The notes under the pieces were generated by a model. The model was not told the DNA's origin. It searched no databases and saw only the letters and a list, made by a program, of their open reading frames with translations. This document shows positions 28,609-54,643 of a DNA stretch of 58,727 nt, piece by piece; within the stretch, counting starts at the first letter, position 1, and the number at the start of each line of letters is the position of its first letter. Location of the stretch: assembly GCA_015272515.1 (NCBI GenBank), contig JACYLN010000135.1, forward strand, positions 1 to 58,727. The letters run 5' to 3'. This DNA is from Leptolyngbyaceae cyanobacterium C42_A2020_001. GTDB lineage: Bacteria; Cyanobacteriota; Cyanobacteriia; Leptolyngbyales; Leptolyngbyaceae. Both the position numbers and the translations under genes were made by a program.

Positions 28609-28690
28609 AACTTGTAGCAATTTTTGTTCACTTTCGCTCGTCTGCCCTATGGTAACGGTAGCAACTCGATGAGATAGAGGGAGTATCACG

Positions 28691-29107: not shown

Positions 29108-29165
29108 GCCAAATCAGGGGCTGGTCGCACCTTTTATGCTTCAGTTCCCTATACCTGATTTGGCT
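29107..29165. repeat. 12-bp perfect inverted repeat between convergent genes
   Basis: AGCCAAATCAGG (29107-29118) and CCTGATTTGGCT (29154-29165) pair perfectly, with a 35-base spacer. There is no T run. It begins at the terB stop codon and may end transcripts or stabilise the 3' end. Confidence 0.5.
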
Positions 29166-29186
29166 ACATACTAACCGAACAAATTA

Positions 29187-29208
29187 CCTGGAATGTTTAC
29201 ACTCCAGG
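29187..29208 (-). terminator. Hairpin overlapping the psb35 stop codon
   Basis: Read on the minus strand, CCTGGA and TCCAGG (29203-29208 with 29187-29192) pair around a 10-base loop that contains the TAA stop of psb35, followed by TAATTTGTT. A terminator overlapping a stop codon is plausible. Confidence 0.45.
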
Positions 29209-29412
29209 ATTTTCGGAGTCTTTAACCTCTGGAACAATATCAGGACGTGCCTTATCTTCCCAACCAACCGGGCGCTTGGAGTTGTACCAGGCGATCGAGC
29301 CAATGGTCACAGCCGCAACAAACCCAATCACATATACTGCAGTAAACCAGGTGGGGAACTGTCCGCCTTGTTTTGCAGGAACTTCCATTAACAGGGTCAC
29401 TAGTAAATCCAT
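29197..29412 (-). CDS. psb35: Psb35-like photosystem II assembly protein
   Basis: A 71-residue one-helix thylakoid protein. It has a short N-terminus, FPTWFTAVYVIGFVAAVTIG as the membrane helix (about 19-40), then the conserved AWYNSKRPVGWEDKARPDIV stretch. This pattern matches Psb35 (Ssl2148 in Synechocystis), which stabilises the CP47 assembly module and its associated high-light-inducible proteins. It lies on the same strand as, and 322 bases downstream of, the hli gene at 29735-29905. The call is from a remembered sequence pattern and is not certain. Confidence 0.65.
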   Translation of the reverse strand: MDLLVTLLMEVPAKQGGQFPTWFTAVYVIGFVAAVTIGSIAWYNSKRPVGWEDKARPDIVPEVKDSENPGV

Positions 29413-29734
29413 ATAAACACTCCTTTCTGTCTAAAACCTTTGTTGAATCCTTAATACATTACAAACCTGAAGTTTATCAATCCATCCCCTTTGAGTCTGA
29501 GGCTTTACTCTACCTGTAGAAAGATAACTAGCTCAGGTTCCTGTTAAACTGCAGCCACAAAAGAGAGGGGATGCTGCTTTCACATCCCCACTTCGTGTTT
29601 AAGGTAACAATTCAAACCCATAATTCAGAGTCAGGGAGAGCGGAGCCAGTTCAATTAGCGGAGCCAGTTCAATTAAAGGAGCGCTCCCATATTCACCCTG
29701 CTCTTACACCTGCATCAAACAAACAAGCGCAGAA
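29413..29734. repeat. Intergenic region with hli terminator and an 18-bp tandem repeat
   Basis: GGGGATG/CATCCCC (29567-29573 and 29583-29589) forms a hairpin that, on the minus strand, is followed by CTCTCTTTTGTG, a likely terminator for hli. Two exact tandem copies of an 18-base unit beginning GCGGAGCCAG lie at 29640-29657 and 29658-29675. An open frame on the plus strand crosses this region but is unlikely to be a gene because it covers the hli gene. Confidence 0.5.
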
Positions 29735-29905
29735 TCAACCTAAACCCAACCAGGACAATAATCCTTGCCCAGTCGCATATTCGATCGCGAGTGCCAAAGC
29801 AAAACCAATCATGGCAGCTCGACCATTCAAACGCTCTGCATACTCATTAAACCCAAATTTGGGATCAGAAACCTTTGGTGAAACCGTGGGTTGTTGTTGA
29901 GTCAT
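29735..29905 (-). CDS. hli: High-light-inducible protein (one-helix CAB-like)
   Basis: A 56-residue gene missed by length filters. The translated core FNEYAERLNGRAAMIGFALA followed by LAIEYATGQGLLSWLGL is the chlorophyll a/b-binding motif of cyanobacterial HLIPs (ERxNGRxAMxGF). These proteins bind chlorophyll and carotenoid, quench excess energy and protect photosystem II assembly. The ATG is at 29903-29905 with GAGG upstream. A hairpin terminator follows at 29567-29589. A light-response-like element lies about 70 bases upstream. It is coupled by position to psb35, a known partner of such proteins. Confidence 0.93.
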   Translation of the reverse strand: MTQQQPTVSPKVSDPKFGFNEYAERLNGRAAMIGFALALAIEYATGQGLLSWLGLG

Positions 29906-30353
29906 GTCCTAATACCTCACTAAAAGTGGCTCACGACTTGGAGAAAATGCAACAGAACTAGCGATCGCTGTCCGTTACATTTCTTAACCTTATTCTATTC
30001 TAAAAACAATCGCGGTACATCAATACAAAAGCAAATTTTGTTGCCAAGTTTCCCAAGTCATGATCTTCGACTCAGCATTGTGTCAGCCAAATCTCGGTAA
30101 ACCGTCTCTTGCAGTACGGGCATCTCAACCATAATTCCCTCTTGTGGTAGCCCTCAAGCAGCTTGGAAGACGGTAGATTAATAAAGGAAAGGAATTTATA
30201 ACTCTTAACAAGGAGTTACAGTTTCTTAGAAAAACGGGTTTAACCTGTAATCTAATCCCTACCCAGTGCATCCAAATCGGGTGCCAAGCGGTAGACGATG
30301 GGCTTCTTTCAAGCTCATCAACTCGATTTGACACGTTTGGTAGGCACTGTCTT
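29906..30353. other. Divergent intergenic region between hli and the DUF1517 gene
   Basis: Besides the HLR1-like element it contains TAACTC/GAGTTA (about 30197-30218), a 6-bp hairpin. A GTA-rich stretch before 30354 may include the DUF1517 promoter. No gene is evident; open frames here lack family features. Confidence 0.35.
29974..29991 (+). promoter_or_regulatory. HLR1-like element upstream of hli
   Basis: GTTACATT (29974-29981), two bases, then TTAACCTT (29984-29991). The first half matches the HLR1 half-site (G/T)TTACA(A/T)(A/T) exactly; the second matches 6 of 8. HLR1 is the binding site of the regulator RpaB at high-light genes of cyanobacteria. It is on the strand opposite to the gene. 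Confidence 0.45.
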
Positions 30354-31325
30354 ATGTATAAAAAGTTGATCTCCCACATCAAACCATTGCTCAAGTCGTT
30401 GGCTGTCATAGCGCTGGTAATAGCTGTTACATTTGGTCATGCCAATGACGCGTGGGCAGCCACGGGGGGCGGTCGCATTGGGGGCGGTTCTTTCCGTGCA
30501 CCAATCCCTAGCCGCACTTATTCTGCACCACGCACCTATGCTCCTCCTGGAGGTGGTTACTATCCGGGTGGTGGCATTGGCTTTCCCTTTGTATTTCCCA
30601 CGTTTTGGGTTTGGGGCGGTGGGGGTAGTTTATTTACCATCCTGATTTTCTTTGCGGTTGCAAGCTTTTTGGTATCAAGTTTCCGGCGCGCCCGCGAAGG
30701 TGGCGACTTGGGCTACGATTCTGCTGTTAACCCAACCATTAGTATTGCTCGGTTGCAAGTTGGGCTGTTGTCGGATGCTCGTGAATTACAAGCGGACCTG
30801 AATAAGATTGCAATGTCGGCAGACACGAGTTCATCTACTGGGTTAGCTCAGGTACTTCAAGAAACAACGTTAGCGCTGTTACGCCACCCCGAATACTGGA
30901 CTCATGCTAGTTCTACAGCTCAACAAGCCCGCTTAGCCGGAGCTGAAGCAGAATTTAATCGTCTGCTTTTAACGGAGCGTAGCAAGTTTAGTCGAGAAAC
31001 TCTCTCTAATGTCAATAATCAGCTCAGACAAGCACCGATTGATGCAGTACTGGTTGGGAATGATGAGGGAGGGTCGCTAACCACTCAGCCTCTCAATGAT
31101 CCAGGCGAGTACATTGTGGTTACGCTGCTGGCGGGTGTTCAAGGCGAATTAAAGCTGCCTACCATCAACAGCACTGAGGAGCTTCGTCAGGCACTAGGGA
31201 TTTTGGGAGGTGTTTCCAGCGATCGCTTATTGGCACTTGAAGTTCTCTGGACTCCTCAAGCCGAAGGAGATGTTCTCACCCGAGACGATCTGATTGTTGA
31301 GTATCCAAATCTCAAAATGGTTTAA
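30354..31325 (+). CDS. DUF1517 family membrane protein
   Basis: A 323-residue protein conserved in cyanobacteria and plastids. A signal peptide or N-terminal anchor (about 12-35, ending NDAWAAT) precedes a Gly/Pro/Tyr-rich segment (APIPSRTYSAPRTYAPPGGG), then a membrane helix (about 95-113: LFTILIFFAVASFLVSSF), and a cytosolic or lumenal C-terminal domain (about 130-323) with ISIARLQVGLLSDARELQAD and the closing TPQAEGDVLTRDDLIVEYPN. A plant member of this family (FLAP1) affects photosynthetic acclimation to fluctuating light. Its place beside hli and psb35 fits a light-stress role, though its activity is unknown. Confidence 0.8.
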   Translation: MYKKLISHIKPLLKSLAVIALVIAVTFGHANDAWAATGGGRIGGGSFRAPIPSRTYSAPRTYAPPGGGYYPGGGIGFPFVFPTFWVWGGGGSLFTILIFFAVASFLVSSFRRAREGGDLGYDSAVNPTISIARLQVGLLSDARELQADLNKIAMSADTSSSTGLAQVLQETTLALLRHPEYWTHASSTAQQARLAGAEAEFNRLLLTERSKFSRETLSNVNNQLRQAPIDAVLVGNDEGGSLTTQPLNDPGEYIVVTLLAGVQGELKLPTINSTEELRQALGILGGVSSDRLLALEVLWTPQAEGDVLTRDDLIVEYPNLKMV

Positions 31326-31351
31326 CCATTGCTTTAATCTTAGGAACTTCA

Positions 31352-31382
31352 GGGAGGCAGTCATGCCTCCCTTTTGCGTTTC
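31352..31382 (+). terminator. Rho-independent terminator
   Basis: GGGAGGCA (31352-31359), loop GTCA, TGCCTCCC (31364-31371), then TTTTGCGTTTCTT. It ends the DUF1517 transcript 26 bases after its stop codon. Confidence 0.85.
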
Positions 31383-31498
31383 TTGATGTAACCTTCACAC
31401 ACTAAAACAATCCCTAAATCTGAATTCCCAAGTTCTTGTGCTGTACTAAAAAGCGGGGGAACACTATTGATAAGCCGTTAAGTTTGGGGAGGTGACCC

Positions 31499-32500
31499 TT
31501 GAGCCAGATTGGAGTCATTGCGATTGGGCGTAATGAAGGTGAGCGTCTACGCGATTGTTTGGAATCAGTGGTTGAAAAAGTTGCTCAAGTCGTTTACGTG
31601 GACTCTGGTTCGACTGATGGCAGCGTGCAACTAGCGCGATCGCTCAATGTAGAGGTCGTCGAACTCGACTTATCGATTCCATTTACCGCCGCTCGTGCCC
31701 GTAATGCTGGATTTGAACGTTTGATAGAACTCAATCCAGACCTGAAATACGTGCAATTCGTTGATGGAGACTGCGAAGTCGTTGATGGTTGGCTAGAACG
31801 CGCCCAGCAAGAACTCCACACTCATCCAGAAACGGTTGTAGTGTGTGGACGACGCAGAGAACGGTTTCCTGAAGCCACAGTTTATAACCGCCTTTGTGAC
31901 ATTGAGTGGAATACCCCCATTGGCGAAACCAAAGCCTGCGGCGGAGATGCCATGATGCGTGTGGCGGCGCTGCAAGCTGTAGGTGGGTATAACCCCACAT
32001 TAATTGCGGGTGAAGAACCTGAACTGTGTATGCGGCTCAGACAAAATGGCGGCAAAATCTTTCGTCTTGATGCTGAAATGACATTGCATGATGCTCAAAT
32101 GACTCGATTTAGCCAGTGGTGGAAACGTTCAGTTCGAGCAGGATATGCTTACAGCGAAGGATCCTGGTTACATGGTGCCCCACCAGAACGCCATTGGGTC
32201 AAAGAAACTCGTAGCATTCGCTTATGGGGTTTGATTATTCCATCTATTGCTCTATTAGCCGCAATCCCAACGAAGGGATTGAGCCTTCTATTGCTCGCTG
32301 GCTATCCCTTGATGGCATACCGCATTTATCAATATGCTCGTCGCTCTGGGCTTAACCCCCAAGATGCAAGGTTGTTTGGTGCGGCGTGTATGGTGGCAAA
32401 ATTCCCGCAAGCTCAAGGTCAACTCAGGTTTTACTGGGGCAAGGTGTTTAAGCAACCCTCTAAATTGATCGAGTACAACACACCTTCACCAGCACATTAG
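31499..32500 (+). CDS. Family 2 glycosyltransferase
   Basis: A 333-residue membrane-associated glycosyltransferase. The GT-A N-terminal domain shows IGVIAIGRNEGERLRDCLES, VVYVDSGSTDGS, and the DGDCE motif near residue 82 where the metal-binding DXD lies. A hydrophobic pair of helices (about 240-280: WGLIIPSIALLAAIPTKGLS) is near the C-terminus. The start is TTG, supported by a strong GGGGAGGTGA upstream. It opens the 31.5-45 kb polysaccharide region and probably adds sugars to a lipid-linked intermediate. Confidence 0.85.
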   Translation: MSQIGVIAIGRNEGERLRDCLESVVEKVAQVVYVDSGSTDGSVQLARSLNVEVVELDLSIPFTAARARNAGFERLIELNPDLKYVQFVDGDCEVVDGWLERAQQELHTHPETVVVCGRRRERFPEATVYNRLCDIEWNTPIGETKACGGDAMMRVAALQAVGGYNPTLIAGEEPELCMRLRQNGGKIFRLDAEMTLHDAQMTRFSQWWKRSVRAGYAYSEGSWLHGAPPERHWVKETRSIRLWGLIIPSIALLAAIPTKGLSLLLLAGYPLMAYRIYQYARRSGLNPQDARLFGAACMVAKFPQAQGQLRFYWGKVFKQPSKLIEYNTPSPAH

Positions 32501-32940
32501 TAATATTAATGTGTCAAATTTCTACTGGTTCTACTGCTTTTTAGTGGAACTGGCTAATAAACTACGCATGTTGACTGGAAAAGCAACTAGTAGCATAACA
32601 GCTCAGTGTTATTCCCGTTATGTAGTAATTTCCGAAGTTATTTTTGCTGCTAAATGTTTATCAGCAACCGCCATTTCAATGATTTTTGAATGAAGTGTTT
32701 CAGATGTTTTACAGAAGTGCTTAAAATCAGGACGAAGCGTTTAATACCTGCGACTTCGGTGATTACTAACATTGCTTTTGTATCGTTAAGCTACGCTTGC
32801 TTCTCTGAAAAAAGCTTAGGTGTTGATGTTTTATCACTTTAACTTATCGTTCAAATGTTCACGTTTTGTTGCTGCAACAGATGAGCTTTAGTTAAGCCAG
32901 ATGGGCATCCTTAGTAAAAGGCAAATATAACTTCTAGCCC
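32501..32940. other. Intergenic region
   Basis: GTTCTACT (32528-32535) and AGTGGAAC (32543-32550) form an 8-bp hairpin with one G-U pair and a T-rich loop, perhaps ending the GT2 transcript. The rest is AT-rich with no gene. Confidence 0.35.
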
Positions 32941-34605
32941 ATGCATTCATGGGGAAATTTAGGTGAAATGGCTAATTATTCCTTAGGGTCGATTTTGTTG
33001 CGCGAGGGCTTGATTACCGAAAGTCAGCTAGATCTCGCCTTGGAAAAGCAGTCGCAACAGGTCGAAACCGCAGGCTGGCAGCTACTTGGAGATATTCTTG
33101 TAGAGTTGGGTGCAATTACTAGAACGGAACTACAAGGTGCCTTAGATAGGCAAGCCAAGCTGTATGACCTTGAGTTTTTTAACGCAGCACCCCATCCTTC
33201 TACAACAAGTTTGAGAAAACGCCTCATTGATATTGCTGGGGCGATCGCTGGGTTAATCATCACCGCCGTCTTACTGCCCATTGTTGCGATCGCGATCTAT
33301 TTAAATTCACCTGGTCCCATTTTTACCGCCCAACCACGGGTTGGTTTGCGTGGCAAACATTTTTTGCTTTGGCGTTTTCGCACAACGACTCCTAATGCTG
33401 AAGCGTTGAGATTACAAGTTGCTCGCCAGAAGGGTTACAAGCTTTTCAACCCGTTGGATGAACCTGGTATCACATTTGTTGGTAAGATTTTGCGTCGTCT
33501 CTATCTGGATGAGCTTCCTCAATTTTTCAACGTTTTGCTGGGAGATATGAGTTTGGTTGGAACACGTCCCCCTACATTAGATGAAGTCAACCTTTACTCC
33601 ACTAGTGATTGGCAACGATTAGTTGTGAAACCTGGGATTACAGGACTTTGGCAAATTAGCCATCGCAAGTATCGGATGAGTTTTGAGGAGGTTTTGAAAA
33701 TTGACTTTTCCTACATTGATGGGTGGAGACAGCAGTTAGATTTTAAGATTCTGGTTAAAACGATCCTATATGTATTGTCGAGTCCGATACGCGCCCTGCA
33801 CCCGCGATCGCTGTCCCCCTTTTACAACGATTCTGTAAATATTCTGAACGTTTCGTTTGACAATATTTCCGCCATGGAGTTGTTAGAAAAACTTCAGCGG
33901 GGAGTTGTTTTTACTCCAAATGTTGACCATTTAATGAAATTGCAGAAAGATCCTGAATTCTTCAAGACTTATCTCAATGCAGATTACCGAGTTTGTGACA
34001 GCCAAATTTTGATCTATGCTGCTCGCTTTCTGGGCACCCCTTTGAAAGAAAAGATTTCTGGTTCTGACTTTTTCCCTACTTTTTGCCGATTTCATCGCAA
34101 TAATGAAGAAACAACGATTTTTCTTCTAGGTGGCGCGGAGGGAGTGGCCGACCGTGCAAAAGCCAAGATCAACAGCAAAATTGGTCGAGAAATTGTGATA
34201 GGTTCTCACTCTCCTTCCTTTGGCTTTGAGAAGAATGAGCAAGAATGCCAGGACATTATTGAAATGGTGAACCAATCTCGTGCAACTGTGCTGGCAGTTG
34301 GTGTAGGAGCACCTAAGCAGGAGAAATGGATCGACAAATATAAGCACCAGTTTACTCATGTCAAAATCTTTTTGGCAGTTGGTGCCACGATCGATTTTGA
34401 AGCGGGAACCGTTAAACGGGCACCTGTTTGGATGAGCAAACTGGGAATTGAATGGCTTTACCGCATTTATGCCGATCCAAAGCGGCTTTGGAAGCGATAT
34501 TTGGTGGAAGATCTTCCTTTCTTCTGGCTGCTCTTAAAGCAGAAAATAGGTAAATATACTCCGCCATCGTTTGGCACCTCAGGAAGTTTTTCAATTCATA
34601 AGTAG
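32941..34605 (+). CDS. MshEN-like / bacterial sugar transferase / WecG-TagA fusion
   Basis: A 554-residue three-part protein. Residues about 13-72 contain two tandem motifs, LGSILLREGLITESQLDLAL and LGDILVELGAITRTELQGAL, matching the paired helical repeats of MshEN/GspE-N domains; the leading Arg usual for c-di-GMP binding is Ser and Leu. Residues about 93-283 are a membrane sugar-1-phosphate transferase with a re-entrant helix (AGLIITAVLLPIVAIAIYL) and the catalytic Asp-Glu pair at 190-191 in YLDELPQFFNVLLGDMSLVG. Residues about 298-535 are a WecG/TagA/CpsF (GT26) glycosyltransferase with FTPNVDHLMKL, GSDFF and GVGAPKQEKWI. It would start a glycan on undecaprenyl phosphate and add the second sugar. 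An alternative ATG lies at 32968. Confidence 0.88.
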   Translation: MHSWGNLGEMANYSLGSILLREGLITESQLDLALEKQSQQVETAGWQLLGDILVELGAITRTELQGALDRQAKLYDLEFFNAAPHPSTTSLRKRLIDIAGAIAGLIITAVLLPIVAIAIYLNSPGPIFTAQPRVGLRGKHFLLWRFRTTTPNAEALRLQVARQKGYKLFNPLDEPGITFVGKILRRLYLDELPQFFNVLLGDMSLVGTRPPTLDEVNLYSTSDWQRLVVKPGITGLWQISHRKYRMSFEEVLKIDFSYIDGWRQQLDFKILVKTILYVLSSPIRALHPRSLSPFYNDSVNILNVSFDNISAMELLEKLQRGVVFTPNVDHLMKLQKDPEFFKTYLNADYRVCDSQILIYAARFLGTPLKEKISGSDFFPTFCRFHRNNEETTIFLLGGAEGVADRAKAKINSKIGREIVIGSHSPSFGFEKNEQECQDIIEMVNQSRATVLAVGVGAPKQEKWIDKYKHQFTHVKIFLAVGATIDFEAGTVKRAPVWMSKLGIEWLYRIYADPKRLWKRYLVEDLPFFWLLLKQKIGKYTPPSFGTSGSFSIHK

Positions 34606-34674
34606 TTCATCGTTTCTTGAGTAACCCTACCTGGTGCCAAACTTGCGTCATCGGGTGGGGTTTGCAGCAAGAGG

Positions 34675-35130
34675 CTACTGCTGGCTCAATTTCGTTGCTT
34701 GCTCAAAACTATAATAAGCTCGTTTGTATTGCCCTAATCGCTGTAAAGCAACTCCTCGAAATAGCCATGCTTCGTGGTCGTTGGGGTTTATCTTAAGCGC
34801 GCGATCGCAACTCTCCAACGCTTCCTGGCTCTTTTCTAGATAAAGCAACACAACTCCCCGAAAGATCCAAGTAGAAGAGTCATTCGGTTGCAATTCTAAT
34901 GCCCGATCAAAACTGAAAAGCGCTTCCTGATAACGCTTCAAGTTTGCCAATGCATCACCTCGGTGATACCAAATTGTTGCTTCATTGGGGCTGAGGCGGA
35001 TTGCGTGCTCATAAGCGGTCAACGCACGATTGTAAAATCCATCCTCTGCCCAGTTCAGCCCCTTCTCCAACCATACTTTGGCATTTTTCGAGTCAAGTTG
35101 TGTAGAAGCTTTTGCGGCACGTGAGTGCAT
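34675..35130 (-). CDS. TPR-repeat protein
   Basis: A 151-residue protein made of about four tetratricopeptide repeats, each of 34 residues, for example WYHRGDALANLKRYQEALFS and WLFRGVALQRLGQYKRAYYS. There is no other domain and no signal peptide, so it is likely a scaffold for protein contacts. It is transcribed opposite to the glycosyltransferase gene that ends 69 bases away. Its partners cannot be read from sequence. Confidence 0.85.
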   Translation of the reverse strand: MHSRAAKASTQLDSKNAKVWLEKGLNWAEDGFYNRALTAYEHAIRLSPNEATIWYHRGDALANLKRYQEALFSFDRALELQPNDSSTWIFRGVVLLYLEKSQEALESCDRALKINPNDHEAWLFRGVALQRLGQYKRAYYSFEQATKLSQQ

Positions 35131-35413
35131 ATCAATGTCCTATTAGTTTGGCGTTAACCACTCGCTCACGACAGTGTTATCGACAACATCAAGGCTAATA
35201 TCAACTGGTAGAGCCACCTTAAAGAGATTTTACACACGCGATGAGTAAAACATCGCTCAAAACACCGCCATACTACGTCATAATTTGCTAGCTGATTTTA
35301 GCAGTATGCTCAATCCCTGACGATAAAATTGTAAACTTACGTCAAATTAACGCTGTTATGCCGGGTCATAAGGCTTGTGAAGCGGTCAAAACATGGAGAA
35401 TTGGACGGTAAAC

Positions 35414-36478
35414 ATGAGTAAGCAGACGATTGGGCTTTTGTTTGGGGGATGTTCTGGAGAGCATGAGGTATCAATTTCTTCAGCACGGGCGATCGCGAAA
35501 GCGTTGACAGCGGAAAAGAATCAGACGAAATACACTGTATTACCGATTTATATCCACAAGGACGGACGTTGGTACGGATCTGAAATTGCACAACAAGTTC
35601 TGCAATCAGGAACGTCCCTTCAAACAACAGATTCCTTGTTGAGTGGTCAATCTCAGCAGTGCTGGCAATTCCCCGACGAAGTTGCCGACGTTGATATTTG
35701 GTTTCCCATATTGCACGGTCCAAACGGTGAAGATGGAACCGTTCAAGGGTTACTCAAGCTTATGCAGGTTCCTTTTGTTGGCTCGGGGGTACTTGGTTCT
35801 GCAATTGGCATGGATAAAATTGCCATGAAACAGGTTTTTGCTCAAGTTGGTTTACCTCAGGTTCAGTATGTCACCGTGAGGCGATCGCAAATTTGGTCAA
35901 ACTCCTGCATCTATCCAACACTGTGCGATGAAATTGAAGCAACGCTCGGCTACCCTTGCTTTGTTAAACCAGCGAATTTGGGGTCATCCGTTGGTATTTC
36001 AAAAGTACGGAACCGGGCTCAATTGGAAGCAGCTTTAGATAGTGCAGCCAGCTACGATCGACGCATAATTGTAGAAGCAGGTGTGGTTGCTCGAGAAGTG
36101 GAGTGTGCAGTTTTAGGAAATGATCAACCCAAAGCCTCAATTGTTGGCGAAATTACTTACCAAAGCGATTTTTACGACTACGCAACCAAATATACACAGG
36201 GCAAAGCAGACCTGATCATTCCTGCGGCACTTCCAGATGCAATCGCCGAAAAAATTCGAGATATGGCAGTTCAAGCCTTTTTAGCGGTGGATGGCGCAGG
36301 ATTGGCACGAGTTGACTTTTTCTACATTGAGGCTGCTCAAACGGTGCTAATTAATGAGATCAACACACTGCCAGGATTTACAGCAACCAGTATGTACCCT
36401 CAACTATGGGCGGCTAGTGGAATTTCGTTCCCTGATCTCGTTGATCAACTGATCCAACTCGCTCTTGAAAGAGAATAG
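35414..36478 (+). CDS. ddl: D-alanine-D-alanine ligase
   Basis: A 354-residue ATP-grasp enzyme that joins two D-Ala for peptidoglycan precursor synthesis in the cytosol. The N-terminus has [20 protein letters not shown]; the ATP-grasp core shows [48 protein letters not shown] and [29 protein letters not shown] holds the metal and product-binding residues. The ATG at 35414 fits family length; an in-frame ATG at 35393 would add seven residues. It sits inside a polysaccharide region but is a normal housekeeping ligase. Confidence 0.95.
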
Positions 36479-36611
36479 GTTCTTGTCAAATGATTAATTA
36501 ATTGGATGTATCTTTGAGCAGGAATTTAACGCTAACGATCCTGTTAGTTGCTCTGTAAACTGGGCATCTTAAAAAGAGAGTTTGGTAGTAGCTAATTCCT
36601 TTCATTAGCCA

Positions 36612-36627
36612 TGTGACGATCGTCACT
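36612..36627. promoter_or_regulatory. CRP-like palindromic site
   Basis: TGTGA-CGATCG-TCACT matches the CRP/SYCRP1 consensus TGTGA-N6-TCACA in 9 of 10 positions; the inner 14 bases (36613-36626) are a perfect palindrome. It lies 134 bases after ddl and 456 before rfbC. Confidence 0.5.
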
Positions 36628-36645
36628 TGCAACACGTTGGATCAC

Positions 36646-36690
36646 GGAGAGAAATTAGTTCATTTAGATGGTTCTCTCCATTTTTGAAGG
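36646..36690 (+). terminator. Terminator-like hairpin with T run
   Basis: GGAGAGAA (36646-36653) pairs with TTCTCTCC (36672-36679), with an 18-base loop, and ATTTTTG follows. It may end ddl transcripts, or a short RNA starting near the CRP-like site just upstream. Confidence 0.5.
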
Positions 36691-37082
36691 GGGTTCTATA
36701 ACTTTAAATACAGGGAGATTGCTGATATTTACTGAGTGGCTGAGACTGGTCAAATTGTGAATATTGGATGGAGTTGAGAAGTGCCTGATGCTCTTAATCA
36801 TTCTGACTACAAGAAGAAAAACTAAGGGTGCTATACCATCCTGATTTCTCAGGAGTTTTGTGGATTGGGAATCTTTTTCTGATATTGATGTGATTTTTTT
36901 ACTTGTGTCAACTTCTGAAAATTTATTTTTTCGTAAAGCGCCGATCAACAACATTGGATCGCTACTGCTTTAAAGCTATAACGCATACAGCGATCGCCAT
37001 CGGGCGAGTTGGAAAACTCTGGGAATTAAACCTGTAAGATGCTTGAACAGTCACCCGATCTCGACCTTATAAGGAAACTGAA

Positions 37083-37628
37083 ATGAATATCTTGCCCACA
37101 GAAATTCCGGACGTTTTGATCATCGAGCCACGAGTTTTCCAAGATGACCGTGGATTTTTCCTGGAAAGCTATAACTCGCAAGCCTTTGCTGAAAAAGCAG
37201 GTATCACTGCTCAGTTTGTTCAAGATAATCACTCACGATCAACCCAACACGTTCTGCGAGGTTTGCACTATCAGATAGAGCAAGCACAAGGAAAGCTTGT
37301 TCGTGCAGTTGTGGGTTCAATCTTTGATGTTGCAGTTGATCTTCGCAAGCAATCGCCTACGTTTGGACAGTGGGTTGGCTGTCTGCTGACTGCCGAAAAC
37401 AAGCGAATGTTTTGGGTTCCGCCCGGTTTCGCCCATGGGTTTTTAGTCGTTTCAGAAGTTGCTGAAGTCCTCTACAAAGCCACTGATTTTTATGCTCCTC
37501 AACATGAACGTTGCGTTTTATGGAATGACCCTGATCTAGCGATCGCTTGGCCCCTATCGGCCGACCCAATTCTTTCTGCTAAAGACCAGGCTGGCAAGCC
37601 TTTAGAATCCGCAGACGTATATCTGTGA
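37083..37628 (+). CDS. rfbC: dTDP-4-dehydrorhamnose 3,5-epimerase
   Basis: A 181-residue cupin-type epimerase, third step of dTDP-L-rhamnose synthesis. It has EPRVFQDDRGFFLESYNSQA, the HSRSTQHVLRGLHYQ motif with the catalytic His, VGSIFDVAVDLRKQSPTFGQW and PPGFAHGFLV, and the Tyr in VLYKATDFYAP, so the active site is complete. AAGGAAAC precedes the ATG. rfbA follows after 21 bases in the same operon. Confidence 0.95.
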   Translation: MNILPTEIPDVLIIEPRVFQDDRGFFLESYNSQAFAEKAGITAQFVQDNHSRSTQHVLRGLHYQIEQAQGKLVRAVVGSIFDVAVDLRKQSPTFGQWVGCLLTAENKRMFWVPPGFAHGFLVVSEVAEVLYKATDFYAPQHERCVLWNDPDLAIAWPLSADPILSAKDQAGKPLESADVYL

Positions 37629-37649
37629 TCCCACTATCCCTAACACATC

Positions 37650-38723
37650 ATGAAAGCAATCATTCTCAGCGGCGGTAAAGGCACACGACTGCGTCCTTTA
37701 ACCTATACAGGCGCAAAACAACTCGTACCCGTGGCAAATAAGCCAATCCTTTGGTACGGCATTGAATCTATTGTAAGAGCTGGCGTTACGGACATCGGCA
37801 TTATCATTAGTCCAGAAACTGGAGAGGAAGTGAAAGCGAAAACCGGAAACGGCGATCGCTTTGGTGCAAACATCACCTACATCCTGCAAGAACAACCTGC
37901 CGGTCTTGCCCATGCCGTTAAAGTTGCCCGTCCTTTTCTGGGTGATTCTCCCTTTGTGATGTACCTGGGAGATAACTTGATTCAGAATGAACTTGGGCAA
38001 TTCATGACAAATTTCAAAGAGCAGCACATGGACGCATTGATTATGTTGCGTCCAGTTTCCAATCCCACCGCCTTTGGGGTTGCAGAGGTCGATGCTCAGG
38101 GGCGGGTGCTTCACTTGGTTGAAAAGCCGAAGGTGCCACCGTCAAATCTGGCATTGGTTGGTATTTATTTCTTTGCAAATACGATTCATGCAGCGATTGA
38201 TCGAATTCAGCCATCGGCTCGTGGTGAACTTGAAATCACGGATGCAATTCAAAACCTGATCGATCATAAAAACCACGTGGAAGCTCGTCAGATTGAAGGG
38301 TGGTGGCTTGATACCGGGAAGAAGGATGACCTGTTGGAAGCCAACCAAATTGTTTTGGATACCTGTTTGCAATCTGCAATTTTGGGTGAGGTGGATGCCC
38401 GTAGCCAGATTTCTGGGCGTGTTCAAATTGGGGAGGGATCGAAGCTGATTAATTGCACAGTCCGCGGACCAGTTGTCATTGGGAACAATTGCCATCTCGA
38501 AAATTGCTTCATCGGACCTTACAGCAGCGTTGCAGATGAGGTAACCCTTATTGATGCAGACCTGGAGCACAGTGTTATTTTGCGCGGTGCAAAAGTGGTT
38601 GGGATTCAACAGCGGATTGTAGACAGTGTGGTGGGGCAACGAGCACAGCTCAAACTGGCTCCCCAGCGTCCTAAAGCCCTTCGGTTTATGATTGGGGATG
38701 ACTCACAGATTGAGTTAGCCTAG
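37650..38723 (+). CDS. rfbA: Glucose-1-phosphate thymidylyltransferase, long form
   Basis: A 357-residue nucleotidyltransferase that makes dTDP-glucose, the first step to dTDP-rhamnose. The N-terminal domain has LSGGKGTRLRPLTYTGAKQL and GDNLIQNEL, and EGWWLDTGKKDDLLEANQI is the sugar-binding segment. The last ~110 residues (about 245-357) are a hexapeptide-repeat left-handed beta-helix (VQIGEGSKLINCTVRGPVVI), which marks the long form found in actinobacteria and cyanobacteria. It is in operon with rfbC. Confidence 0.93.
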   Translation: MKAIILSGGKGTRLRPLTYTGAKQLVPVANKPILWYGIESIVRAGVTDIGIIISPETGEEVKAKTGNGDRFGANITYILQEQPAGLAHAVKVARPFLGDSPFVMYLGDNLIQNELGQFMTNFKEQHMDALIMLRPVSNPTAFGVAEVDAQGRVLHLVEKPKVPPSNLALVGIYFFANTIHAAIDRIQPSARGELEITDAIQNLIDHKNHVEARQIEGWWLDTGKKDDLLEANQIVLDTCLQSAILGEVDARSQISGRVQIGEGSKLINCTVRGPVVIGNNCHLENCFIGPYSSVADEVTLIDADLEHSVILRGAKVVGIQQRIVDSVVGQRAQLKLAPQRPKALRFMIGDDSQIELA

Positions 38724-38983
38724 CCAGGCGCAAACTCATTTTGTTACACAGTACTTTAAAGTCGATTCAGTGATGAAGCACTTGCAAATACGTTCGCTGT
38801 ATTGCTGTAAGTTTTTCCCACTGGTCGGCTTTATCTTCGTCGTTGGAACATGGCTTCATGAGTTTTTAACGGAGATTTTTCATGAGATCAGCAAATTATG
38901 GGATTTTCCGATTCTTTGTGGGAACGTTAAACCCAGGATGTTCAGATTTGTTGCGTCACTCATGAACAAGGCTTAGTTATCAC

Positions 38984-40027
38984 ATGCATTGGACTATTGC
39001 TGCCCCCTTTATTCACAATCCAGAAGTCGATGGTGATTGGTTGATTCCCTACATTCCGGGCAATCGCCATCAATTTAGCATCGTGCCTCACAGCGAACCA
39101 TTAGCAAACTGGCATAATAAATCTGCATCAGTAACCAGCTACCGCCAATGGCTCAAGTATTTAGACCAAGCTAAAGAAGCTGTGCACCAAACAAAGGGAG
39201 GCATCATTACGGTTTTTCCCCAGCTTGCTTCTGCGGTTGGGATTCATCAACAACTTGCCCGTAAGCAAATTCCAATTGTTGCTTGGTTGTTTAATGTTGG
39301 GGTGTGTTACCCAGGAGTACGCCGCAAGCTAGCACAACTTAGTCTCAAAAACGTCTCTCACTTTGTTGTTCATACTCGGCGAGAATGCGAGATTTATAGT
39401 CAATGGCTTGGTTTTCCTAAAGAGCGGTTTGAATTTATTCCCTATCAGTCCGCAGAGATCCCGGTCATCTACGAAGAGAACGAAACGAATCCTTTTATTG
39501 TGGCCATTGGATCGGCTCATCGAGATTTTCCAACACTTTTTGAAGTGGTTGAAAAATTAAATCTACCTACTGTTGTTGCCTCAGGACCGCGATCGCTAGC
39601 AGGGTTAAGCATTCCGTCACAAGTTCAAACCCCTTTTGGCATTGGCAAAAAGGATTGTTTACGCCTTGCCCAAGAAGCCCGAATTAATGTCATTCCTCTA
39701 CGACCAGATGATTTGGTGACAGCCGCTGGGCAAGTCACCATTGTTGAAACGATGCGGATGGGGCGAGCTATCATCGCGACCCGATGCAATGGAGCAGAGG
39801 ATTACATCATTCATGGTGAAACAGGTCTATTAGTTGAGCCTCAATCTGCTGAAGATTTAAAGCAAGCTATTGAGATGCTCTGGAATGACGCAACGCTGAG
39901 AAATCGTTTGGGGCAGGCAGCACAGCAATATGCATCCGAACATTTTTCAGATCAAGCCGTTGGTAGATCTCTGGGTAAAATTCTCAATCACTTGGCGGAT
40001 TCTTATTCCTGTGAAACTCCGCCTTGA
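38984..40027 (+). CDS. Family 4 glycosyltransferase
   Basis: A 347-residue GT-B enzyme. The C-terminal half holds the nucleotide-sugar site: FIVAIGSAHRDFPTLFEVVE, a strand-helix repeat, then IVETMRMGRAIIATRCNGAE with the E-x7-E-type signature and GETGLLVEPQSAEDLKQAIE. The N-terminal acceptor domain is ordinary. No clear ribosome binding site precedes its ATG. It lies between rfbA and another GT4 and probably adds one sugar to the same exopolysaccharide. The sugar cannot be stated. Confidence 0.8.
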   Translation: MHWTIAAPFIHNPEVDGDWLIPYIPGNRHQFSIVPHSEPLANWHNKSASVTSYRQWLKYLDQAKEAVHQTKGGIITVFPQLASAVGIHQQLARKQIPIVAWLFNVGVCYPGVRRKLAQLSLKNVSHFVVHTRRECEIYSQWLGFPKERFEFIPYQSAEIPVIYEENETNPFIVAIGSAHRDFPTLFEVVEKLNLPTVVASGPRSLAGLSIPSQVQTPFGIGKKDCLRLAQEARINVIPLRPDDLVTAAGQVTIVETMRMGRAIIATRCNGAEDYIIHGETGLLVEPQSAEDLKQAIEMLWNDATLRNRLGQAAQQYASEHFSDQAVGRSLGKILNHLADSYSCETPP

Positions 40028-40165
40028 ACCAATAAGGTTCAGAGTTTCCAAAATTGAAGGAACAGACAAATTAGAGAAAAGTCCTTCTAGCAACCAGGAA
40101 TTTGGTTTTCGATACTGTTAGCAAGCTAAGAATTGAGTCTTAAAGATATAGGCAGGAGCAATTCA

Positions 40166-41476
40166 ATGAGTGTGGTTAACCTAAAAGTTCTGATGATTGC
40201 CGAACATTGCAATCCAGATTGGGCATCTGTACCTCTGGTTGCCTACAATTTTTATCACGAAATTAGCCAGATTGCAGATGTAACCCTCGTAACTCATGGC
40301 AGAAATCGAGAGGGGTTTGAGCGACATAGCAGCCATACAAACGTTACTTATATTGATGAAAGCCCTTTAGCTCAAAAATATCATCGGTTGATTAGTAACT
40401 TGATTGAGAAAGGGCGTGCAAACTGGCCTTTATATTTAGCGCTTTCTTATCCTATTTACGCGGAATTTAATCGAAAAGTTTATCTTCTTTTTAATCAAGA
40501 TGTAAGAGCGGGAAAGTATGACGTTGTTCATGCAATTACGCCAGTAATGCCACGTTATCCTGTTTCCATGATTAGAGCATGTAAAAATACACCGTTGCTT
40601 TTGGGGCCTGTAAATGGAGGCGTTCCCTTTCCAGAGGGCTTTCAAGAAACTGCCAAAAAAGAAAAGGCGTTTTGGAATTTCTTGAAGCCATTTGGGCGAT
40701 ATCTTTTGCCGGGGTATGTGGAAACTTATAAGAAAGCAGATCGGATTCTATCAGGGTCAACCTATACCTTGAATATGTTGAAGCAACTATTTGGGATTGA
40801 AGATAACCGAATTGAGTTGTTTTTTGAAAATGGCATTTCCAAAGACTTTTTGCAGCCAGTGCATAAACAATCTCGCTCCGATAAGGTTGAACTGTTGTTT
40901 GTAGGTCGGCTTGTACCTTATAAAGGAGCTGATTTAGTCATAGAAGCGATTGGTCAACTTGATCCAATCTTGCAACATCGCCTCTCACTCACTATTGTTG
41001 GAGATGGGTCTGAGAGGGGCGAATTGGAAAGTCGGGTAGCTGAACTCAATCTACAAGAAATTGTGAAGTTTGCAGGTTGGGTGAAGCAGCAGGAGACGTA
41101 TGAGTATTACAGTAAATCTGATGTCTTTTGTTTCCCCTCTGTGCGAGAGTTTGGCGGCGCTGTTGTGATGGAAGCAATGGCTTGCGGACTACCTTCCATT
41201 GTGGTTAACAATGGAGGAATTGCTGAGTATGTGACTGAGGGAACAGGATTTAAGATTGAGCCTGTTTCGAGGGAGTATGTAATTAGAGAAATGGCAGACA
41301 AGATCCGACTGTTAGCTGAGGATGAAGCATTGCGATCGCAAATGTCAGAGAAAGCCGTTGAACGAGCCAGAGAGTTTGAGTGGAGTGCGAAAGCGAAGCA
41401 AATTGTTGAAATCTATGCCAAACTCCTGGTGCAGAAGAAGCTACAAACTAATTCAAGTGTTTCATTGAGTGTTTAA
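40166..41476 (+). CDS. Family 4 glycosyltransferase
   Basis: A 436-residue GT-B retaining glycosyltransferase. It begins MSVVNLKVLMIAEHCNPDWA. The donor domain is clear: LLFVGRLVPYKGADLVIEAI near residue 235, VGDGSERGELESRVAELN, FPSVREFGGAVVMEAMACGL carrying the E-x7-E pair, and ESVTEGTGFK-like VNNGGIAEYVTEGTGFKIEP. AGGAG at 40154-40158 supports the 40166 ATG over an upstream TTG. It shares its region with rfb genes and is probably part of one biosynthesis cluster. Confidence 0.88.
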   Translation: MSVVNLKVLMIAEHCNPDWASVPLVAYNFYHEISQIADVTLVTHGRNREGFERHSSHTNVTYIDESPLAQKYHRLISNLIEKGRANWPLYLALSYPIYAEFNRKVYLLFNQDVRAGKYDVVHAITPVMPRYPVSMIRACKNTPLLLGPVNGGVPFPEGFQETAKKEKAFWNFLKPFGRYLLPGYVETYKKADRILSGSTYTLNMLKQLFGIEDNRIELFFENGISKDFLQPVHKQSRSDKVELLFVGRLVPYKGADLVIEAIGQLDPILQHRLSLTIVGDGSERGELESRVAELNLQEIVKFAGWVKQQETYEYYSKSDVFCFPSVREFGGAVVMEAMACGLPSIVVNNGGIAEYVTEGTGFKIEPVSREYVIREMADKIRLLAEDEALRSQMSEKAVERAREFEWSAKAKQIVEIYAKLLVQKKLQTNSSVSLSV

Positions 41477-41561
41477 GATTGCTGGGTTTGCTCTGTTTGA
41501 GTGATTTGATTGCACTACTGTCTGTCCACGATTATTATTGAGAGCTAAAGCAGGTAAAGCA

Positions 41562-42656
41562 ATGACTTTTTCTGAAAACTCCCCATCTTCAAAGCAAGAA
41601 CGCCGACTGATTGTGACAGGCGGGGCTGGATTTATTGGTGCTAACTTCGTGCACTACTGGTGTGCAAAATATCCAAACGATCGCGTCATCGTTTTGGATG
41701 CACTCACTTATGCAGGGAACCGTCAAACCCTCGCATTGTTAGATACTCATCCCAACTTCCGCTTCGTTAAAGGTGACATTTGCGATCGCTCCCTTGTAGA
41801 TGCCTTAATTCAGGAAGAAGCGGTAGACACAATTGTTCACTTTGCCGCCGAGTCTCATGTGGATCGTTCCATTTTGGGTCCTGGTGCGTTTGTCCAAACT
41901 AACGTGGTGGGTACGTTCACGCTACTAGAAGCGTTTCGGCAGCATTGGCTTGCTGGCGATCGCCCCAGCCACTATCGCTTTCATCATGTTTCAACGGACG
42001 AGGTGTATGGCAGCTTAGGTTCAGATGATCCCGCTTTTTCAGAAACCACTCCCTATGCTCCCAACAGTCCTTATTCTGCATCGAAAGCGGGTAGTGATCA
42101 TCTAGTGCGGGCTTATCACCACACCTACGGGATGCCAACTACGATGACCAACTGTTCCAATAACTATGGTCCTTATCACTTCCCGGAAAAATTGATTCCC
42201 CTAATGTGTATTAATATCTTGCTGGGGAAACCGTTGCCTGTATACGGTGATGGGCAAAACATTCGTGATTGGCTGTACGTGAAAGACCATTGCAGCGCGA
42301 TCGATGCTGTGCTGGAGCGCGGCGTGATTGGCGAAACCTATAATGTTGGCGGCAACAACGAAGTCAAAAATATCGATCTCGTTCATATGCTGTGCGAATT
42401 GATGAATGAGTTAGCGCCTAAACTGCCCGTTCGTCCTGCCCAAGAGTTAATTACGTTTGTGAAAGATCGCCCCGGACACGATCGCCGTTACGCAATTAAT
42501 TCCACTAAGCTACAAAACGAACTTGGTTGGACTCCCTCAGTTACTGTGCAAGAAGGATTGCGCCAAACCGTAGAATGGTACCTGGAGAATGAAGCGTGGT
42601 GGCGACCACTGCTGTCGGAAGAGTATCAAGCTTACTACAGCAAAGTTTATGCATAA
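41562..42656 (+). CDS. rfbB: dTDP-glucose 4,6-dehydratase
   Basis: A 364-residue extended SDR enzyme, second step of dTDP-rhamnose synthesis. NAD site GGAGFIGANFVHYW, AESHVDRSI, and the active site HHVSTDEVYGSLG plus YSASKAGSDHLVRAYH (the Tyr-x3-Lys pair) are all intact. The ATG at 41562 is preferred over a TTG at 41538 because of AGGT just upstream. The next gene begins with the last base of its stop codon (TAATG), so translation is coupled. Confidence 0.95.
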   Translation: MTFSENSPSSKQERRLIVTGGAGFIGANFVHYWCAKYPNDRVIVLDALTYAGNRQTLALLDTHPNFRFVKGDICDRSLVDALIQEEAVDTIVHFAAESHVDRSILGPGAFVQTNVVGTFTLLEAFRQHWLAGDRPSHYRFHHVSTDEVYGSLGSDDPAFSETTPYAPNSPYSASKAGSDHLVRAYHHTYGMPTTMTNCSNNYGPYHFPEKLIPLMCINILLGKPLPVYGDGQNIRDWLYVKDHCSAIDAVLERGVIGETYNVGGNNEVKNIDLVHMLCELMNELAPKLPVRPAQELITFVKDRPGHDRRYAINSTKLQNELGWTPSVTVQEGLRQTVEWYLENEAWWRPLLSEEYQAYYSKVYA

Positions 42657-53179: not shown

Positions 53180-54643
53180 GTGAGCTTGGATAAAAAGCCC
53201 TCAAACCTGTTGCAACCCCCTTGTTTTAGCTACAAAGTACTTTTTCCTCTCCTGATTGGGGTGGCGATCGCGACACCTGTTGCTGCTGCTCCTCCTACCT
53301 GGCAAGCATCTCCACCCCGACAAACCATCTTTCAATCGGGTGAAGGAGATGGCTACATTCTAGGAGCGGGCGATCGCCTCAAAATTGACATCTTCAATGT
53401 CCAGGAATTTAGTGGAGAATACCAGGTTTTACCAAATGGTACGGTGAACCTGCCCCTGGTAGGCGCTGTAGGAGTACAAGGGCGAACTTTAGGACAAGCA
53501 GAACGGGCAATTTCTGCAAAATACAACCCCGTTTTACAACAACCCGTAATCACGGTCAGTTTAGTCACACCGCGTCCAATCCGGGTTGCCGTTGCAGGTG
53601 AAGTGAATCGCCCTGGAACCTACACCGTTCCCACTGCCAGCAGTTCTACAGAAAGTAATGTTCCCAGCCTCACTCGTACCATTCAACTGGCTGAAGGGGT
53701 TACTCAAGCGGCTGATTTGCGGAATGTGCAAATTCGTCGCAAACGCCCCGCAGGTAGTGCCGCGGATGAAGTAATCAAAGTCGATTTATGGTCACTTCTG
53801 CGAACCGGGAATTTACAAGAAGACATTCGTTTACGGGATGGGGATAGCATCCTGATTCCGGCAACAACGGCGGTCAATCTTGAAGAAGCCCAGCAATTGG
53901 CAGCGGCTAACTTTGCAGCCCGCAACAATCGCCCACTGAAAATTACCGTTGTTGGGCAAGTCAATCGTCCTGGTCCTTACACGCTGATTGAAGGAGCTGT
54001 GGGGCAACGAGATCAATTGATCAATCCAAACTTATTGCAAGTTCCCAGTGTCACTCGTGCTATCCAGGTCGCCGGAGGAATCACGCAACAAGCAGATATT
54101 CGGAACATTCAGGTTCGTAGATTGACTCGATTGGGACCGCCTCAAATTATCAAAATTGACTTTTGGAAGCTGTTGAAAGCAGGTGATGTACTGCAAGATT
54201 TACCATTACAAGATGGTGATACTATCGAAATTCCAATTGCAACAGCAGTGAACGATAGCGAGATTACAGAACTAGCAACTGCAAGTTTTTCACCTGACAG
54301 AATTACAGTGAATATCTCAGGTGAGGTTGAAAGACCGGGTGCCGTTTCGCTGCAACCAAATACTCCTTTAAATCAGGCAATTTTAGCGGCTGGTGGGTTC
54401 AATCGAAAAGCGGTTAAACGAGAAGTAACATTGATTCGTCTGAATCCAAATGGCTCAGTTACAAAACGCGATGTGGCAATTAATTTTGAGCAAGGTGTCA
54501 ACGATCAAGGAAATCCAGCTCTCCGCAATAACGACATTGTTATTGTTAGAAAAACAGGATTTTCCACTTTCCTTGATCGAGCCAATGATGTGTTGGGTCC
54601 TGTTACCGGGTTAGCAAACTTTTTCAGAATTTTTGGTTTTTAA
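53180..54643 (+). CDS. Polysaccharide export protein with SLBB repeats (Wza-like)
   Basis: A 487-residue exporter of the OPX family, which forms the outer-membrane or periplasmic channel for polysaccharide. A signal peptide (about 1-37, ending PVAAAPP) lacks a lipobox Cys. Residues about 50-130 are the polysaccharide-export domain (YILGAGDRLKIDIFNVQEFS). Three SLBB-type repeats follow: IRVAVAGEVNRPGTYTVPT, LKITVVGQVNRPGPYTLIEG and ITVNISGEVERPGAVSLQPN; the first two are followed by matching 90-residue insert segments, an internal duplication. The start is GTG with AGGAG upstream. A terminator lies 77 bases downstream. Confidence 0.92.
   Translation: MSLDKKPSNLLQPPCFSYKVLFPLLIGVAIATPVAAAPPTWQASPPRQTIFQSGEGDGYILGAGDRLKIDIFNVQEFSGEYQVLPNGTVNLPLVGAVGVQGRTLGQAERAISAKYNPVLQQPVITVSLVTPRPIRVAVAGEVNRPGTYTVPTASSSTESNVPSLTRTIQLAEGVTQAADLRNVQIRRKRPAGSAADEVIKVDLWSLLRTGNLQEDIRLRDGDSILIPATTAVNLEEAQQLAAANFAARNNRPLKITVVGQVNRPGPYTLIEGAVGQRDQLINPNLLQVPSVTRAIQVAGGITQQADIRNIQVRRLTRLGPPQIIKIDFWKLLKAGDVLQDLPLQDGDTIEIPIATAVNDSEITELATASFSPDRITVNISGEVERPGAVSLQPNTPLNQAILAAGGFNRKAVKREVTLIRLNPNGSVTKRDVAINFEQGVNDQGNPALRNNDIVIVRKTGFSTFLDRANDVLGPVTGLANFFRIFGF

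Follow-up and report, generated by a model that had tools for sequence, protein, structure and literature searches.

Gene and domain organization

The stretch of DNA analysed here (the window) comprises 58,727 nucleotides of contig JACYLN010000135.1 from Leptolyngbyaceae cyanobacterium C42_A2020_001 (assembly GCA_015272515.1). On its forward strand it carries a gene for a single chain in which an MshEN domain, a type of domain known for binding cyclic di-GMP (c-di-GMP), stands ahead of a phosphoglycosyl transferase (PGT) and a glycosyltransferase of family GT26. This is a real, conserved and rare three-domain protein, kin to known MshEN-glycosyltransferases and to bifunctional PGTs, and its architecture, along with the varied c-di-GMP domains borne by GT26 enzymes of relatives, suggests direct signal control of the start of a cell-surface sugar chain. 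The original prediction, made from the sequence letters, had described such a fusion, and matches to NF053729, PF02397 and PF03808 bear it out. The gene and its features are as follows (handles beginning with G, L, C and f denote genomes, loci or their proteins, contigs and families, respectively).

32968..34605, + strand: MshEN-PGT-GT26 gene, from the probable start M10 (the first ATG of the frame is at 32941)
32980..33051, + strand: MshEN motif I, residues 14-37 (NF053729, phmmer, alignment and model; motif pattern of PMC5013675)
33082..33153, + strand: MshEN motif II, residues 48-71 (NF053729, phmmer, alignment and model)
33217..33777, + strand: monotopic PGT domain, residues 93-279 (PF02397, E 9.2e-53; WbaP and PglC-type chains)
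33508..33513, + strand: catalytic Asp190-Glu191 (aligned with LDELPQ of WbaP)
33829..34575, + strand: GT26 (WecG/TagA/CpsF) domain with its C-terminal appendage, residues 297-545 (PF03808 over 347-520, E 1e-58; TagA 7mpk/5wb4)

The open reading frame at 32941-34605 on the + strand encodes 554 residues without interruption. It had originally been taken to begin at 32941, a position that is corrected here: the true start is probably M10 (ATG at 32968) rather than the first Met, because M10 is conserved in 16/16 aligned family sequences (the window protein and 15 relatives) and no earlier start codon exists in the frames of 11 of the 15 relatives. Since the sequence aggtgaa sits merely 2 nt ahead of this ATG, no good ribosome-binding site is claimed. 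A search for RNA families across 28000-40000 returned nothing at gathering score, and promoter and terminator scans yielded signals not above those of shuffles. A frameshift or artefactual join was rejected as the source of the fusion, given that the three-domain frame is intact in 8 of 388 genomes of the class (among the matches listed) and that the genome with the G386 copy consists of a single contig.

By its profile match and Asp-Glu pair, the middle domain is assigned to the monotopic PGTs, and the C-terminal domain is assigned to GT26 by profile, Thr, Asp and appendage Arg. The catalytic signatures are intact, as originally stated: D190-E191 aligns with the corresponding pair of WbaP, and T325, D353, R508 and R515 match TagA positions 37, 65, 214 and 221 (counted along the alignment). 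Equivalents of the first three are present in 99/99 collected GT26 domains and those of R515 in 97/99. A long helix at about residues 91-122, possibly re-entrant, appears in a whole-chain model of low confidence (predicted local distance difference test, pLDDT, about 55-60 locally). The protein does not qualify as a large monotopic PGT of the WbaP type, since about 90 residues precede the PGT core and these are matched by the MshE-related model. It shares the catalytic core with WbaP and EpsZ, in which the initiating step is regulated, but it has neither the four-helix membrane bundle nor the coenzyme A-binding-like domain, and regulation in those proteins is by uridine monophosphate or EpsW~P (PMC10942596, PMC12802240). 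As in the bifunctional monotopic PGTs (Bi-PGT; PMC10942596), the PGT core is fused to another functional domain, although here there are two additions, GT26 behind and MshEN in front. Equivalents of T37, D65, R214 and R221, together with the C-terminal appendage, are shared with TagA/WecG; TagA is a single-domain protein with a proposed membrane switch, whereas the window GT26 is tethered to a PGT and a sensor (PMC6493773).

Fold and ligand contacts of the N-terminal domain

Sequence and model comparisons place the N-terminal domain in the MshEN fold family. The NCBIfam model NF053729 (c-di-GMP-binding, MshE-related) matched the window protein in two stretches at 42.0 bits, above its cut-off of 38, and phmmer aligned 69 N-terminal residues with MshE (5htl) at E 1.6e-4. 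When a 17-sequence profile, built from 16 family sequences and the own genome's stand-alone MshEN protein L001 (cut short), was searched against the PDB, it recovered PilF (7.5e-21), PilB (6.1e-12) and MshE (3.1e-9). The same 17 aligned sequences underlie a predicted structure of the N-terminal 84 residues with a pLDDT of 81 and helices above 90. This model contains the four-helix arrangement of MshEN_N, and its best matches are MshE and PilF GSPII-B, so the MshEN-type fold that had been proposed near residues 13-72 is indeed predicted there. In a Foldseek comparison with the PDB, the top six rows were MshE or PilF GSPII-B complexes with c-di-GMP (probability 1.00, root-mean-square deviation (rmsd) 0.7-2.4 Å, 58-60 columns, E 0.03-0.4); no row reached E ≤ 0.001. 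VIA-align gave Z 9.8 for MshE 5htl (rmsd 1.9 Å, 59 aligned) and 9.5, 9.4 and 9.0 for PilF GSPII-B, with human fumarase as the first unrelated row at Z 6.0. For a helical domain such Z values alone are unconvincing, and the profile matches to PilF, PilB and MshE add sequence support. Compared with the MshEN and GSPII-B domains of MshE and PilF (PMC5013675, PMC11731258), the window protein shares the two 24-residue motifs, the fold and the Leu, Gly and Gln contacts; it differs in that motif I opens with none of Arg, Lys and Leu, in its 10-residue spacer and in having no MshEN_C subdomain.

In the published complexes, each motif contacts guanine through Leu2, Gly3, Leu17, Leu21 and Gln24 (PMC5013675, PMC11731258). 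All ten of these residues, five in each motif, are present in the window protein, and the positions are nearly fixed across the 16 sequences (14-16/16 each, with both Gln at 16/16). Their mean entropy is 0.15 bits as against 1.22 domain-wide, a value so low that, when Leu/Ile/Val/Met/Gly/Ala/Gln columns were drawn at random, it was reached in 2 of 20,000 draws. Position 1 is occupied differently: motif I begins with Ser in 11 sequences, Ala in 2, Thr in 2 and Phe in 1, and motif II with Leu in 13, Arg in 2 and Met in 1. As the original prediction had noted, the usual leading Arg is replaced in the window protein, by Ser14 in motif I and Leu48 in motif II. Under the extended consensus, which accepts Arg, Lys or Leu at position 1 (PMC11731258), motif II conforms through Leu48 and motif I fails at Ser14; the domain is therefore filed as an MshEN fold and not as a proven c-di-GMP receptor.

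The same prediction regarded ligand binding as open on account of the missing Arg. That caution stands insofar as Ser lies outside the consensus, but the loss appears less damaging than supposed: PilF GSPII-B, with Lys and Leu at position 1, binds c-di-GMP at 6 nM, the PilF K167L change improves the affinity to 2 nM (PMC11731258), and changes of Arg9, Asp12 or Gln32 in MshE shift affinity by at most about fivefold (PMC5013675). Because this published work shows that the leading Arg is not essential, binding of c-di-GMP by the window domain is plausible, and on sequence and model we lean modestly towards it. The own genome very probably makes the messenger, since it encodes 11 GGDEF domains above cut-off; MshEN matches occur there in three frames, the window gene included.

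Distribution and origin

The original prediction had suggested a cyanobacterial survey of the fusion, and the chain proved to be rare. In a class-wide draw of 388 genomes, in which matches were ordered by score with full-length ones on top and about three candidates per genome were scored, 166 genomes had a GT26 match at E ≤ 1e-90, and the full chain was found in 8 (among the matches listed) along with one fragment. The carriers so listed are G000 (the own genome), G386, G398, G400 and G411 in the window's family and G534, G554 and G561 in family f18. A phylum draw of 386 genomes gave matches at E ≤ 1e-60 in 52, of which the own genome was the sole carrier of the full chain. Two simpler distributions were rejected: the fusion is not restricted to the window's genus, since family f1 has carriers in further genera and family f18 has them too, and it is not general in cyanobacteria, as the listed full chains and the GT26-matching genomes of the class draw make plain.

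Within the window's family, the N-terminal domain was matched in 14 of 42 genomes. These comprise five complete three-domain genes, one fragment (G387, which stops at a contig end, with a GT26 piece present on another contig), seven sister genomes (G415-G421) with a two-domain MshEN-GT26 protein devoid of PGT, and, in G396, a different MshEN protein truncated where its contig ends. Stenomitos frigidus ULC18 and Lyngbya sp. HA4199-MV5 are among the two-domain carriers, and Leptolyngbyaceae RU_5_1 is a three-domain carrier. In G422 and G423, GT26 occurs with neither MshEN nor PGT. The family-f18 copy L147 (G561) has Asp-Lys in place of Asp-Glu and a shortened PGT.

Phylogenetic reconstruction suggests that the three-domain chain arose once. 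In a midpoint-rooted PGT tree of 35 rows, where the remaining PGTs were taken as encountered in the fetched loci, the eight PGTs of three-domain chains cluster with the G387 fragment in a single group that has a support of 100 in the Shimodaira-Hasegawa-like approximate likelihood ratio test (SH-aLRT). The GT26 tree has 99 rows and leaves out L003 (a truncated duplicate of the window gene), identical domains, and hits with fewer than 200 aligned residues or above E 1e-20. Here the three-domain, two-domain and stand-alone G422 and G423 genes share one side of a branch with a modest support of 73, and the family-f1 group lies inside that side with support 97. The simplest account would be a single origin of the three-domain chain, after which one genus would have lost the PGT and another both sensor and PGT, in a presumed order.

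Signalling modules on GT26 and other enzymes

MshEN-GT26 proteins without a PGT are one of several arrangements in which c-di-GMP modules accompany GT26. Among 11 scanned GT26 proteins with a C-terminal extension, first picked by open-frame length, 8 carry MshEN above the NF053729 cut-off (L015 80.1, L035 68.2, L045 81.2, L083 77.0, L104 61.8, L135 48.1, L194 88.4 and L199 64.8 bits), and three fail (L078 36.6 bits, L080 23.8 bits, and L105 with no match at E ≤ 0.001). A profile from nine of these GT26 proteins found the full form in 10 of the 388 class genomes, as 11 genes; seven of these had built the profile, the G045 gene is almost identical to that of G033, and those of G452 (two genes) and G457 are new. 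One genome, G070, encodes two GT26 proteins with C-terminal tandem MshEN (L194, L199) as well as MshEN-pentapeptide proteins (L195, L200).

An EAL domain (PF00563, E 3.6e-42 in L077) is located N-terminally to GT26 in 8 of the 14 family-f18 genomes searched (L077/L139 and L140-L146). The frame is open in 7 of the 8, and that of G534 has two in-frame TGA codons; G534 and G554 carry the three-domain protein in addition to EAL-GT26. A comparison of the 8 sequences, with L077 aligned to solved EAL proteins, indicates that E-x-L-L-R is kept, that DN replaces DD in 7 of 8, and that the Glu of A-E-x-V-E is gone in 8 of 8. We take these lost residues to be catalytic and the domain to be degenerate, and a receptor therefore fits better than a phosphodiesterase. 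Since MshEN-GT26 without PGT, GT26-MshEN and EAL-GT26 all exist, the recurrent partner of c-di-GMP modules in these sequences is GT26 rather than the PGT. A further 11 GT26 proteins, L127 and L130 among them, are extended N-terminally by about 60-190 residues, a stretch that in L127 and L130 has no Pfam match above cut-off.

On the GT26 tree, C-terminal MshEN requires six changes, two of them forced by well-supported branches. In approximately unbiased (AU) tests, constraining all MshEN-bearing GT26 proteins to one clade gave p 0.015, and constraining C-terminal MshEN alone gave p 0.044, which is marginal. Architecture labels came from length and short patterns, with L102, L103 (the same as or close to L080, at 23.8 bits) and L105 (no match), which had been labelled as C-terminal MshEN, relabelled by hand; L194 and L199 were fetched after the tree and lie outside it. 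Several origins of MshEN on GT26 are likely but not proved, because the groups were defined with the tree already in view and contain three weakly supported rows.

MshEN partners more generally were sampled from 40 class genomes with an MshEN match, taken in listing order, a small and non-random set in which many MshEN frames were of PilB length (about 670-716 residues, not typed) or small. Ten longer proteins, seven from this sample and three from G255 and G296, were typed as two GT26 (both from G070), two GalE, one GT2, two pentapeptide, one M23 and two with no clear partner, and G109, also in the sample, holds a further GT26 with MshEN. Where the partner in this set is an enzyme, it tends to act on glycans or nucleotide sugars, and GT26 comes up repeatedly. 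GalE with C-terminal MshEN is encoded by L196 527-1750 (G091, 45.7 bits) and L205 208-1434 (G255, 58.3 bits by NF053729) and is possibly a c-di-GMP-responsive sugar-nucleotide enzyme. In L201 (G085), MshEN precedes GT2 (PF05157, 47.6 bits), an NfrB-like pairing reversed, in a frame that leaves the fetched stretch, while L207 (G296) is an M23 peptidase with two N-terminal MshEN motifs.

MshEN can occur fused with glycosyltransferases, as stated generally in PMC5013675, and NfrB of Escherichia coli is a case in which c-di-GMP binding and its requirement have been demonstrated (PMC8669469). In the window protein as in NfrB, a domain of this c-di-GMP-receptor kind is fused to a surface-polysaccharide glycosyltransferase, a role that is predicted for the former. 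NfrB, however, is a GT2 enzyme with processive signatures and a C-terminal MshEN, whereas the window chain consists of an N-terminal MshEN, a PGT and GT26; with no GT2 domain found by Pfam and with MshEN at the N-terminus, it is not of the NfrB type. Among seven scanned ordinary long PGTs (about 330-390 residues), none has MshEN in front, and six have a STAS domain ahead of the small PGT, as has L091 in another scan. These STAS-PGT proteins are L056 (own genome, G000:C134 near 51618), L084, L088, L089, L091, L092 and L093. They resemble the window protein in that a small signalling domain precedes a small PGT, in the own genome as elsewhere, and differ in having STAS instead of MshEN and no GT26.

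Proposed function and alternatives

The domains, the fold, the conservation of the contact residues and the recurrence are observed; from them we infer ligand, gating, direction of control, sugars and polymer. Our favoured reading, to which we give even odds, is that the protein would start a lipid-linked glycan with two enzyme activities and carry its own receptor for a second messenger. Under this proposal, the PGT, held in the membrane by a re-entrant helix, would transfer a sugar-1-phosphate from a nucleoside diphosphate sugar to undecaprenyl phosphate, and the tethered GT26 would add the second sugar to the product, a two-step transfer deduced from family chemistry and the intact catalytic residues. 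One c-di-GMP would be held between the two 24-residue motifs, chiefly by leucine stacking and two Gln; the resulting domain arrangement would raise or lower the output of disaccharide-lipid, and the c-di-GMP level would thereby set the share of undecaprenyl phosphate committed to surface polysaccharide. The controlled step would most likely be that of GT26, because MshEN-GT26 exists without a PGT and other GT26 enzymes bear C-terminal MshEN or EAL. Control might pass through the switch proposed for TagA, which is thought to be inactive as a soluble dimer and to be activated as a monomer when its appendage folds on the membrane (PMC6493773); by analogy, a tethered membrane PGT, or a receptor directly behind the appendage, could drive such a switch.

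A broader proposal, somewhat doubtful at present, is that GT26 would be a general c-di-GMP-controlled commitment point of cyanobacterial lipid-linked glycan assembly, to which receptors are attached in three arrangements (N-terminal MshEN with or without PGT, C-terminal tandem MshEN, and N-terminal degenerate EAL). The window protein would then be the most integrated form, sensing the messenger, loading the first sugar and adding the second, without the guanine-stacking Arg.

Several observations weigh against a c-di-GMP-gated initiator. The Pfam MshEN model PF05157, which had been put forward along with PF02397 and PF03808, had no match on the window protein at E ≤ 0.5, in contrast to the other two, so curated support for MshEN comes from one of two libraries; three f18 relatives, at 33-37 bits, fall below the NF053729 cut-off. 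Motif I is led by Arg, Lys or Leu in 0/16 sequences, the two motifs are separated by 10 residues instead of the canonical 5, Arg9 and Gln32 are termed important in PMC5013675, and the conservation of Leu and Gly may reflect the needs of the fold alone. Contact between sensor and enzymes is not seen, because the whole-chain model is poor (pLDDT 50). MshEN is promiscuous in cyanobacteria, so the fusion alone is modest evidence, and the GGDEF search placed none of the own genome's 11 domains on the window's contig (C15).

Part of this evidence would suit a domain that has lost c-di-GMP and plays a structural role, dimerising the enzyme or docking a partner as a substitute for the N-terminal domains that large monotopic PGTs have, in the manner of PilB-PilZ of Xanthomonas citri. 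We consider this alternative rather unlikely, yet substantial. It accounts for the Ser, Ala, Thr or Phe at motif I position 1 in all 16 sequences, the long spacer and the sub-threshold f18 members; PilB-PilZ structures are among the fold matches, and XpsE is a published MshEN relative that does not bind (PMC5013675). XpsE, however, no longer has the Gly, Leu and Gln residues that the window family retains, with both Gln invariant, and GT26 enzymes of other genomes bear EAL, a c-di-GMP domain of unrelated type, which also speaks against this reading. A change of ligand, to c-di-AMP, cyclic GMP-AMP (cGAMP), a nucleotide sugar or another small molecule, is very improbable. In 15 of the 16 sequences a small residue stands where the first guanine would be stacked, which could alter selectivity, and WbaP has an accessory domain for sensing uridine nucleotides (PMC10942596); against this, MshEN binding of c-di-AMP was undetectable and that of cGAMP weaker (PMC5013675), and the Gly whose backbone reads guanine is conserved in both motifs.

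The fusion might also serve primarily for channelling, so that the PGT passes its lipid-linked sugar on to the attached GT26 while MshEN is carried along as a passenger. A PGT gene does lie in the fetched flank (mostly 1.5 kb) at 7 of 91 GT26 loci without an in-chain PGT, on the same strand in 6 and within 180 nt in 5 of these, and every three-domain PGT falls in one tree group. The seven sister genomes nevertheless retain MshEN on GT26 and lack the PGT, the opposite of what a passenger sensor predicts; G422 and G423, in which both are missing, weaken that objection. Overall, channelling as the main purpose is improbable.

The gated-initiator proposal bears on a wider question, in that post-translational control of Wzx/Wzy-type pathways is incompletely understood, while synthase-type pathways are often c-di-GMP-controlled (PMC12802240). 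If it is true, a sensor within the initiating enzymes would be a direct answer. The original prediction called a signal-gated, single-chain start of glycan synthesis unusual. A sensor on initiation is odd and the chain is rare, but precedents exist in EpsW~P, which acts on EpsZ and so places the initiating step under signal control (PMC12802240), and in the STAS-PGT proteins. The open-access literature yielded no paper on the MshEN-PGT-GT26 architecture, absence there being weak evidence, and none that pairs a PGT with MshEN, so the concern that the architecture might already be well characterised did not materialise. The interest of the window protein rests on the wider pattern of c-di-GMP modules placed on the same GT26 enzyme in different ways. 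The natural series of three-domain protein, MshEN-GT26, GT26 alone at one locus, C-terminal MshEN and EAL-GT26 makes the question testable and singles out GT26 as a point at which the surface polysaccharide of cyanobacteria might be controlled.

Genomic context

The gene lies among the following genes, listed here with the basis of each assignment.

31499..32500, + strand: GT2 glycosyltransferase gene, immediately upstream (library domain match)
34675..35130, - strand: TPR-type protein, downstream and convergent (TPR named by eye; similar gene downstream in L005 and L051)
37083..42656, + strand: rmlC, rmlA, two Glycos_transf_1 glycosyltransferase genes and rmlB, in the same neighbourhood (domain matches)
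53180..54643, + strand: Poly_export/SLBB (Wza-type) polysaccharide export protein (domain match)

A similar GT2 gene is found upstream of the homologue in G386, G387, G400 and G411, and upstream of the stand-alone GT26 in G422. A D-Ala-D-Ala ligase gene follows the TPR-type gene and precedes rmlC. At 48164-50158, the window also encodes a histidine kinase with DICT, CHASE6_C and GAF domains, DICT being named for diguanylate cyclases and two-component systems.

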